Positions 8,580-18,491 of a stretch of DNA of 64,000 bases are shown here, piece after piece. The first letter of the stretch is position 1; each line of letters opens with the position of its first letter. Under the pieces are notes generated by a model that saw nothing but the letters and a program-made list of their open reading frames with translations, was not told where the DNA came from and did not search any database. Location: NCBI RefSeq assembly GCF_000196895.1, contig NC_014297.1:1432119-1496118 (forward strand), written 5' to 3'. The DNA is from Halalkalicoccus jeotgali B3 (GTDB lineage: Archaea > Halobacteriota > Halobacteria > Halobacteriales > Halalkalicoccaceae). The position numbers and the translations under genes are program-made.

Positions 8580-8942
8580 ATGGCTTCCCGACCGGCCACC
8601 CTCGCGCTCGTCGCGACCGGCGGTTTCCTCGGCGCGATGGCCCGATACGGTGTGGCGCTACTCGGGCCGGGGCTGGCGGGGACGTTCCTCGCCAACGTCA
8701 CCGGCTGTCTCGCCCTCGGGTACGTCTTTTACACCGCGGCCGCCACCGAGCGGATCTCACCGGAGACGCGACTGTTCGTCGCGACCGGGTTTCTCTCCTC
8801 GTACACCACCTACAGCACGTTCGCCCTTCAGACGACCGAGGCCTCGCCCGCGTGGGGGGTTCTCAACGTGCTCGGGAACTACGCCTGTGGCTTTGTCGCC
8901 GTCGTCCTCGGCCGGCGACTCGCCCTGGGTGAGTGGCGATGA
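8580..8942 (+). CDS. crcB1: Fluoride exporter CrcB/Fluc, first subunit
   Basis: 120 residues with four transmembrane helices, the size of one Fluc subunit. Family features are seen: GGFLGAMARYG (conserved Gly/Arg in helix 1), FLANVTGCLALG (the pore Asn in helix 2) and GFLSSYTTYSTFALQT (helix 3 break with the central sodium site and Phe/Ser/Thr pore residues). Fluc channels export fluoride passively as antiparallel dimers. This gene overlaps a second crcB by ATGA, so an obligate heterodimer of opposite topologies is likely, as known for paired crcB genes. Confidence 0.93.
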   Translation: MASRPATLALVATGGFLGAMARYGVALLGPGLAGTFLANVTGCLALGYVFYTAAATERISPETRLFVATGFLSSYTTYSTFALQTTEASPAWGVLNVLGNYACGFVAVVLGRRLALGEWR

Positions 8943-9289
8943 TCGACGCGCTGCTGGTCGGTATGGGTGGGGCGACCGGGGCGGTGTTACGATACCTCGT
9001 CGGACTCGTCGTCGGTCCTCGCAGCGAGTTCCCCCTCGAAACGCTCACTGTCAACGTCTTAGGGAGCTTCGCCCTCGGCTGGGTGACGTTCGCCGGGGTC
9101 GGTGAGAGGCCCGCCCTACTCGTCGGCGTGGGTGCTTGCGGGGCGTTCACAACCTTCTCGTCGTTCTCGGTTGATACGGTCCGACTCGTGGAGGACGAAC
9201 GGGAGGCTCTGGCCGGGGTGTACGCGCTCTCGAACCTGCTCCTCTCCGTGGGTGCGGTTCTCGTTGGCGCGCTCGTCGCAACAGTATAG
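8939..9289 (+). CDS. crcB2: Fluoride exporter CrcB/Fluc, second subunit
   Basis: 116 residues, four helices. Motifs match the first subunit: GGATGAVLRYLVG in helix 1, NVLGSFALGW in helix 2 and GACGAFTTFSSFSVDT in helix 3. The ATG at 8939 overlaps the stop of the first gene (ATGA), implying translational coupling; a GTG two codons upstream (8933) is an alternative. The two subunits probably insert in opposite orientations and form one channel. Confidence 0.93.
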   Translation: MIDALLVGMGGATGAVLRYLVGLVVGPRSEFPLETLTVNVLGSFALGWVTFAGVGERPALLVGVGACGAFTTFSSFSVDTVRLVEDEREALAGVYALSNLLLSVGAVLVGALVATV

Positions 9290-9292
9290 GTT

Positions 9293-9300
9293 TTACATAG
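9293..9300 (+). promoter_or_regulatory. TATA-like box of the winged-helix gene at 9321
   Basis: TTTTACAT is 21-28 bases before the ATG. A GA-rich sequence, GAGGAGGT, lies directly before the start and could act as a ribosome binding site on a longer transcript. Confidence 0.4.
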
Positions 9301-9320
9301 TCGCTACCCTCAGAGGAGGT

Positions 9321-9611
9321 ATGGCAACCGAGGAGATCCCCGCAAAGTTGACCGCACTCGCCGAGAAGATGGCGACGGAGTACCGAGAGTCGGAGTACGA
9401 TATCGCGGTAGCGCTCGCGAACGCCGGAGAACCCCTCTCGACGGCGGAACTGGCCGAGGAGACGGGCTACACCGAACGAACGGTCAAAAAGCGCGTCGGC
9501 ACCCTTGAGGAAGCGCTGGACGGCGAACCGCTGCTCCGGCGGGACGAGGAGGACCGACCGGTGTTAGCCGCACCGCTCGCGACGGCGGTCCGCGAACAGG
9601 CGGGCGAATAA
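9321..9611 (+). CDS. Small winged-helix DNA-binding protein
   Basis: 96 residues. The central part is a helix-turn-helix with a wing: 'AVALANAGEPLSTAELAEETGYTERTVKKRVGTLEEAL', with recognition helix TERTVKKRVGTL, then a beta hairpin 'LLRRDEEDRPVLAAPLA'. No ligand domain is present. Its target is unknown. It ends just before the structured region at 9653-9821, which lies on the same strand and could be its 3' untranslated region or a separate RNA. Confidence 0.75.
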   Translation: MATEEIPAKLTALAEKMATEYRESEYDIAVALANAGEPLSTAELAEETGYTERTVKKRVGTLEEALDGEPLLRRDEEDRPVLAAPLATAVREQAGE

Positions 9612-9652
9612 CCCGCGGCGTCGTCGCTGTATCGTAGCTTGTTCCAAAACGG

Positions 9653-9821
9653 TGTACGCGACCGCCGACCGGCTTCCGGTCGGCGCGGTGATCCGGGGTG
9701 GGGGGGAAAGCGGATCACCCGCGTACAGATGATGGCGTCGAATCGCCATCGAGAGTGCGATGGGGAGGGGGGGGGTGGCCTCTGACAGGCACAACGGCCG
9801 TCTCCTTGACGGCGATTTTTT
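9653..9821 (+). ncRNA. Candidate structured RNA: three-way junction, two more hairpins, T6 end
   Basis: Seen directly: an outer stem pairs 9653-9660 with 9720-9727 (8 bp). It encloses hairpin 9664-9672/9676-9684 (9 bp, 3-base loop) and stem 9687-9695/9711-9719 (9 bp, 15-base G-rich loop), with only 3, 2 and 0 unpaired bases between them, which is a compact three-way junction. Two further perfect hairpins follow: 9731-9737/9744-9750 and 9797-9802/9808-9813, the last running into T6 (9816-9821), as in a terminator. G-rich unpaired tracts lie at 9696-9706 and 9762-9775. All the listed stems are fully Watson-Crick. The strand is inferred from the T run; the RNA could instead be the 3' end of the preceding mRNA, or be read from the minus strand, where the loops become C-rich. 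It does not match SRP RNA or RNase P RNA as far as I can see. Confidence 0.4.
9797..9821 (+). terminator. Hairpin plus T6, terminator-like
   Basis: GCCGTC (9797-9802), loop TCCTT and GACGGC (9808-9813) form a 6-bp hairpin. Two bases later comes TTTTTT (9816-9821). Archaeal termination mainly needs the U run. It would end transcripts coming from 9321. Confidence 0.5.
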
Positions 9822-9878
9822 CGAGGAGGTCTACGAATAAATACTTTGTGTATTATGTAAATCATAGTGGATAATATA

Positions 9879-18406: not shown

Positions 18407-18491
18407 GCGCGGGTTGCCGAGCCAGGCCAAAGGCGCAGCGCTTAGGACGCTGTCCCGTAGGGGTCCGCCGGTTCGAATCCGGTCCCGCGCA
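18407..18491 (+). tRNA. tRNA-Leu (anticodon TAG)
   Basis: 85 bases with a long variable arm, as expected for class II tRNA. The acceptor is GCGCGGG/CCCGCGC with discriminator A18491, and CCA is not encoded. The anticodon stem CAGCG/CGCTG carries loop CTTAGGA, so the anticodon is TAG (Leu, CTA). The variable arm is GTCCCGTAGGGGTCC. The T arm is CCGGTTCGAATCCGG. No intron is present. Confidence 0.97.

Follow-up and report, generated by a model that had tools for sequence, protein, structure and literature searches.

The gap between two convergent genes in the window analysed here (64,000 nt of Halalkalicoccus jeotgali B3, a haloarchaeon with a genome of 3.70 Mb in 7 contigs) very probably encodes a real, transcribed and structured non-coding RNA. 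Its sequence and those of its homologues point to a stand-alone RNA of about 170 nt, read from its own promoter on the minus strand and specific to the genus Halalkalicoccus. The best overall explanation, and one that we hold to be rather probable, is a genus-specific regulatory small RNA (sRNA) whose C-rich core contacts mRNAs. The sRNA is new to Rfam and belongs with the genus-restricted haloarchaeal intergenic sRNAs, a type already known, among which its invariant core is unusually long. The open-literature titles and abstracts found for Halalkalicoccus and small RNA all deal with other subjects, and the sRNA is not described in them.

Promoter, strand and ends of the transcript

A combined BRE and TATA box (CACAAAGTATTTATT) lies on the minus strand at 9836-9850, with 11 of its 15 columns invariant in the seven genus genomes. 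The distance from its end to the first hairpin is exactly 22 nt in every one of the seven, with only 3 of the 22 spacer columns invariant. This spacing is the geometry of a haloarchaeal promoter, the elements being as described previously (PMC4983044), and it puts the predicted start at about 9813. An own BRE/TATA some 22-30 nt before the 5′ end, as expected of a haloarchaeal intergenic sRNA, is present in 7/7 genomes. Because the BRE/TATA is conserved at a fixed distance, we assign the RNA to the minus strand, a choice that the earlier note had left open, and the internal tracts are therefore C-rich in the RNA.

The proposed transcript covers 9645-9813 (minus strand). While its 5′ end is predicted from the TATA spacing, its 3′ end would lie at or just past a U4 tract (9646-9649, minus strand), a probable termination site; a short U-rich tract follows stem P4 in six of the seven genus genomes (CCGUUUU, CUGUUU, CUUUU, UUCUUU). 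The element is single copy and syntenic and sits between convergent genes; in the six genomes with a readable flank, there is no same-strand gene behind it. Since the downstream neighbour is convergent, the sRNA is not a leader, and a riboswitch or other cis-acting leader is ruled out.

Overlapping the BRE/TATA is an inverted repeat, AATAC-ACAAA-GTATT (9840-9854, minus strand), the sole match of its kind within the window when up to 3 mismatches are allowed. A dyad of at least 4 bp is present at the promoter in five of the seven genomes, being absent in those labelled G003 and G006. In G001 it is one bp shorter, and in G002 both of its sides are changed (AATGC-ACAAA-GCATT). The dyad may be an operator, that is, a repressor site.

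Invariant core and covarying junction

An earlier note had proposed a candidate novel structured RNA with five perfect stems in this gap, and all five are found at the coordinates it gave, with perfect pairing. Three of them, read directly from the sequence, belong on the minus strand to a three-way junction (9653-9727): P4 (8 bp, 9653-9660 TGTACGCG with 9720-9727 CGCGTACA), P6 (9 bp, 9664-9672 with 9676-9684, GCCGACCGG/CCGGTCGGC) and P5 (9 bp, 9687-9695 with 9711-9719, GGTGATCCG/CGGATCACC). The other two, likewise read directly and given here in plus-strand letters, are P3 (7 bp, 9731-9737 with 9744-9750, GATGGCG/CGCCATC) and P1 (6 bp, 9797-9802 with 9808-9813, GCCGTC/GACGGC). In the RNA, P1 is the 5′-terminal hairpin GCCGUC-AAGGA-GACGGC (9797-9813), with an invariant stem and a loop that reads AAGGA, ACGGA or GAAAC. 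P3 is the hairpin GAUGGCG-AUUCGA-CGCCAUC (9731-9750), the arms of which are conserved or invariant, with a loop varying in both sequence and length. The judgement that such stems are unlikely by chance also stands: the minus strand folds with z = -4.7, none of 200 dinucleotide shuffles folding equally well, and the plus strand with z = -2.5. The minus-strand fold beats its shuffles in all seven genus homologues (z -3.1 to -7.2), and the excess over shuffles is larger on the minus than on the plus strand in six of them.

The most constrained part of the RNA, as judged from the aligned genomes, is not the three-way junction but a 46-nt core, which the earlier note had not singled out. The core, GUUGUGCCUGUCAGAGGCCAC-C(n)-UCCCCAUCGCACUCUC (9751-9796, minus strand), lies in the 5′ half of the sRNA, and 40 of its 46 columns are invariant, compared with 4 of 35 upstream, 3 of 22 in the spacer and 0 of 28 downstream; the sample for these counts is a thin one of seven genomes from one genus. 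Within the core, the C run ranges from 4 to 9 nt across genomes (4, 6, 7 or 9 nt). Two alternative folds can be drawn for the core, either a GUGCCU/AGGcCAC hairpin or GUGC/GCAC together with GAGG/CCUC, and its lack of variation gives no choice between them.

The junction half of the RNA (3′) behaves differently, varying in sequence while its stems persist. Covariation was counted in six genomes on a structure-based alignment (A8), which was itself fitted to the structure. In this alignment 96.5% of the cells of the junction stems pair, and five pairs change on both sides (7 cells), against a mean of 2.0 in shuffled controls and 0 in every slid or offset control. Although the alignment was fitted to the structure, the compensatory changes can be read straight from the sequences. 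In P5, G001 and G006 have C-G in place of one U-A pair; four double-change positions lie in P6, including variants in G002 and G006; the outer P4 pairs are constant in all six genomes carrying P4. The claim of a structured RNA is thus borne out by homologues in six other genomes of the genus and by five junction pairs with compensatory changes; absence of such homologues, together with that of a transcript, is what the earlier note had named as refuting it. In the remaining genome, G003, the junction is degenerate, its outer stem and its P6 having been lost or rebuilt, and the core is intact. Constraint is thus strongest on the core, and the junction seems to be a body that can be exchanged. 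A second possible contact site is the apical loop of P5 (CUUUCCCCCCCACCC, 9696-9710, minus strand); it is C-rich, though variable in length, in six of the seven genomes, and in G003 it is GUCGAU, which is not C-rich.

Distribution and known RNA classes

Our searches suggest that the sRNA is restricted to the genus Halalkalicoccus. Among 59 genomes searched with blastn, the element was found in all seven Halalkalicoccus genomes, in one syntenic place, and in none of the 52 genomes outside the genus. A covariance model built on the 5′ half of the sRNA (R1) recovers the same seven genomes at E <= 3e-16. Across 293 genomes of the order, its only matches beyond the genus were two, in L023 and L024, with E 0.002-0.004 per genome; we rejected both as homologues, as their stems are broken and a C tract is lacking, and chance gives such E values over 293 genomes. 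The same model with looser filters found nothing further below E 0.01 in 39 genomes, and a search of 391 genomes of the class for the core pattern, tolerating 3 mismatches at most, gave no further true match. The sRNA is likewise absent from three sister-genus genomes. An exact 18-mer of the core was sought in 84,980 species genomes; it is present in Halalkalicoccus paucihalophilus DSM 24557 and in one Euryarchaeota MAG (our G005), and it also gave four bacterial hits, which were taken as chance; an exact 17-mer had no match in viral contigs.

Four further candidates (L025, L036, L037 and L041) were rejected as homologues, being alike among themselves and unlike the sRNA. They carry a different conserved element (GACGGGATGGTCTCC...GGAGACCATCCC...GTGTCTGTCAYAGGCCACC) that is present in several haloarchaeal genomes. 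This element occurs twice in one genome near contig ends and resembles a mobile-element end.

Among all 4227 Rfam families, none matches the element at the gathering score, and 6C, SRP RNA and RNase P RNA have no match in the window. At E values up to 5, a scan of 301 local bases returned only BcKCsr7, which scores 15.6 bits where the cut-off is 59. Archaeal SRP RNA and RNase P RNA are structured and non-coding like the sRNA, and both are encoded elsewhere in the same genome: its only copies of SRP RNA (RF01857) and RNase P RNA (RF00373), at C1:2080813-2081124 and C1:2737388-2737732, score well above the Rfam cut-offs. The earlier note had been unable to match the region to either of these or to a riboswitch, and both the Rfam scan and the orientation of the neighbouring genes agree. 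A guide for rRNA was rejected as well, the longest perfect complement to the rRNA operon stretch being 10 nt, the commonest value for shuffled sequence. So was a C/D or H/ACA guide: reading alignment A2 revealed no conserved RUGAUGA/CUGA pair, and the ACA past P4 varies between genomes (ACA, ACG, ACU). Elsewhere in the window, ARAGORN places a tRNA-Leu (tag) at 18407-18491 (plus strand), which the Rfam scan at gathering score does not list.

The arms of P5 (GGUGAUCC/GGAUCACC, 9687-9719) are identical to the 16S rRNA 3′ end and to the complement of that end. This likeness is probably a coincidence, and we set the match of GGAUCACC aside because in G001 and G006 the stem has covaried to GAUCGCC.

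The closest known counterparts by type are two Haloferax sRNAs, sRNA132, with its BRE/TATA (PMC6560208), and the regulatory rancRNA s194 (PMC6104027), both restricted to that genus. From the parts of these reports available to us, all three RNAs are intergenic, confined to one haloarchaeal genus each and assigned to no Rfam family here, and sRNA132 further resembles the present sRNA in having its own BRE/TATA promoter and conserved synteny. They differ in genus and sequence, and for the Haloferax RNAs there are RNA and phenotype data and proposed targets, whereas the Halalkalicoccus sRNA is known from its sequence. In those same parts, neither a three-way junction nor a long invariant C-rich core is described for sRNA132 or s194. 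The sRNA thereby extends the Haloferax pattern, in which haloarchaeal sRNAs arise and persist genus by genus. To our knowledge, covariation supports the structure of only a few archaeal sRNAs, and a nearly invariant core is rarer still.

Possible modes of action and competing explanations

An own promoter, a hairpin-capped 5′ end, exposed C-rich stretches, an invariant core and a stable 3′ body are most likely the traits of a trans-acting sRNA. If the sRNA is real, action as a trans-acting antisense regulator through its C-rich core is, by analogy, a serious possibility, though somewhat short of probable. In such a mechanism, the hairpin-capped 5′ end and the three-way-junction body at the 3′ end would protect the RNA and present the C-rich core, usually along with the C-rich loop of P5, to several mRNAs at their G-rich stretches. 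Contact between core and mRNA would then alter translation or stability of the message, as with sRNAs that have C-rich loops. A weaker step of the proposal is that a regulator acting on the dyad that overlaps the TATA box might allow the sRNA to be made only under some condition. In the clade to which the sRNA belongs, most mRNAs are thought to be leaderless.

The nearest analogy is the actinobacterial 6C/B11 family, as in mycobacterial B11/6C, the C-rich loops of which bind G tracts near starts (PMC10470900). Here too, stems present C-rich single-stranded stretches, with contact to G tracts only proposed for the Halalkalicoccus sRNA. The two are not homologous and belong to different domains of life, and one C tract of the sRNA is placed in a long invariant linker instead of a hairpin loop.

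Target searches gave no direct support. With up to 2 mismatches allowed, complements of 15 nt of the core were only modestly commoner than the sites of a reversed-pattern control, and the 15 complementary sites that we inspected all fell within open frames and gave no hint of a common regulatory site; no long conserved mRNA target emerged. Nor were the duplex energies of the sRNA with the neighbouring fluC-HTH mRNAs consistently above a reversed-sequence control. The main rival is therefore a protein-binding role, in which the sRNA would act as a scaffold, a sponge or part of an RNP, its core being the protein site and mRNA pairing secondary; we consider this unlikely, albeit worth weighing. 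The invariant block of 46 nt exceeds the usual length of an antisense seed and would be in keeping with a protein-binding site too, the more so as it keeps potential helices (GUGC/GCAC, GUGCCU/AGGcCAC) along with linkers, and our searches found neither a conserved complementary mRNA target nor an rRNA site. On the other hand, a C run of 4-9 nt fits a rigid protein site less well than slippery pairing with G tracts, and no partner gene is known.

We put forward only tentatively that the sRNA founds a new archaeal RNA family, its invariant C-rich core being either a global regulator that seeks G tracts or the recognition site of an undescribed RNA-binding protein. If true, a core seeking G tracts would be an archaeal parallel of the bacterial sRNAs with C-rich loops. 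Either way, the nearly invariant core shows where the function should be sought. The promoter, strand, ends and domains of the sRNA are clear and it is present in a cultured organism, H. paucihalophilus DSM 24557; a direct search for its partners is therefore feasible.

It is very improbable that the plus strand is the functional one, the stems serving the HTH gene at 9321-9611 as a 3′ UTR or terminator structure. That gene is syntenic and ends 42 nt before the stems, the plus strand folds too, and in this genome a T6 run (about 9817-9822, plus strand) follows the last hairpin. The homologues, however, do not conserve the T6 run, which the earlier note had rightly seen in this genome; the run therefore falls outside the feature and is not the sRNA terminator. 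Moreover, the minus-strand BRE/TATA keeps its exact spacing in all genomes, the fold excess favours the minus strand, and no conserved plus-strand BRE/TATA precedes the stems. A conserved DNA element without an RNA product, be it a protein-binding array or the remnant of a mobile element, is just as improbable. Expression of the sRNA is indeed inferred from sequence alone, but covariation preserves the pairing and not the sequence, the promoter stands at a fixed spacing, and the element is a single syntenic copy. Least probable of all is that the minus strand encodes a small protein: frames open over 76 and 132 codons do span the region, but the C run varies in length by 1, 2, 3 and 5 nt between genomes and so breaks every frame, which means that the sRNA is not coding; the predicted peptides diverge past the C run, with stops in some genomes, and third positions in the core are as invariant as the others.

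The convergent neighbour of the sRNA (9321-9611, plus strand) encodes a small winged-helix HTH protein of 96 aa, matched by HTH_11 at its cut-off, and is not part of the RNA. It adjoins the sRNA in six of the seven genomes, the seventh having a contig break at this point. Going outward from the sRNA, the HTH gene is followed by two tandem CrcB/FluC fluoride-channel genes, and the whole block (8580-9611, plus strand) is syntenic in the genus. Beyond Halalkalicoccus, the sister genus and three further genomes of the order have the HTH gene, and no relative of these fluC genes was detected within the flank examined there. Just past the HTH gene, the sister genus (L060, L061 and L062) has a strongly conserved C-rich stretch, TTTGACAGAAGACTCATTACAGG...GTGCGGGG...CCCCGCA AACGCCCCAACTGCCCTTTCCCTCCCCCTTTT, which is probably structured. 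This stretch occupies the same place as the Halalkalicoccus sRNA, is unlike it in sequence and is absent from Halalkalicoccus. Two different conserved elements, one per genus, thus adjoin the same HTH gene.
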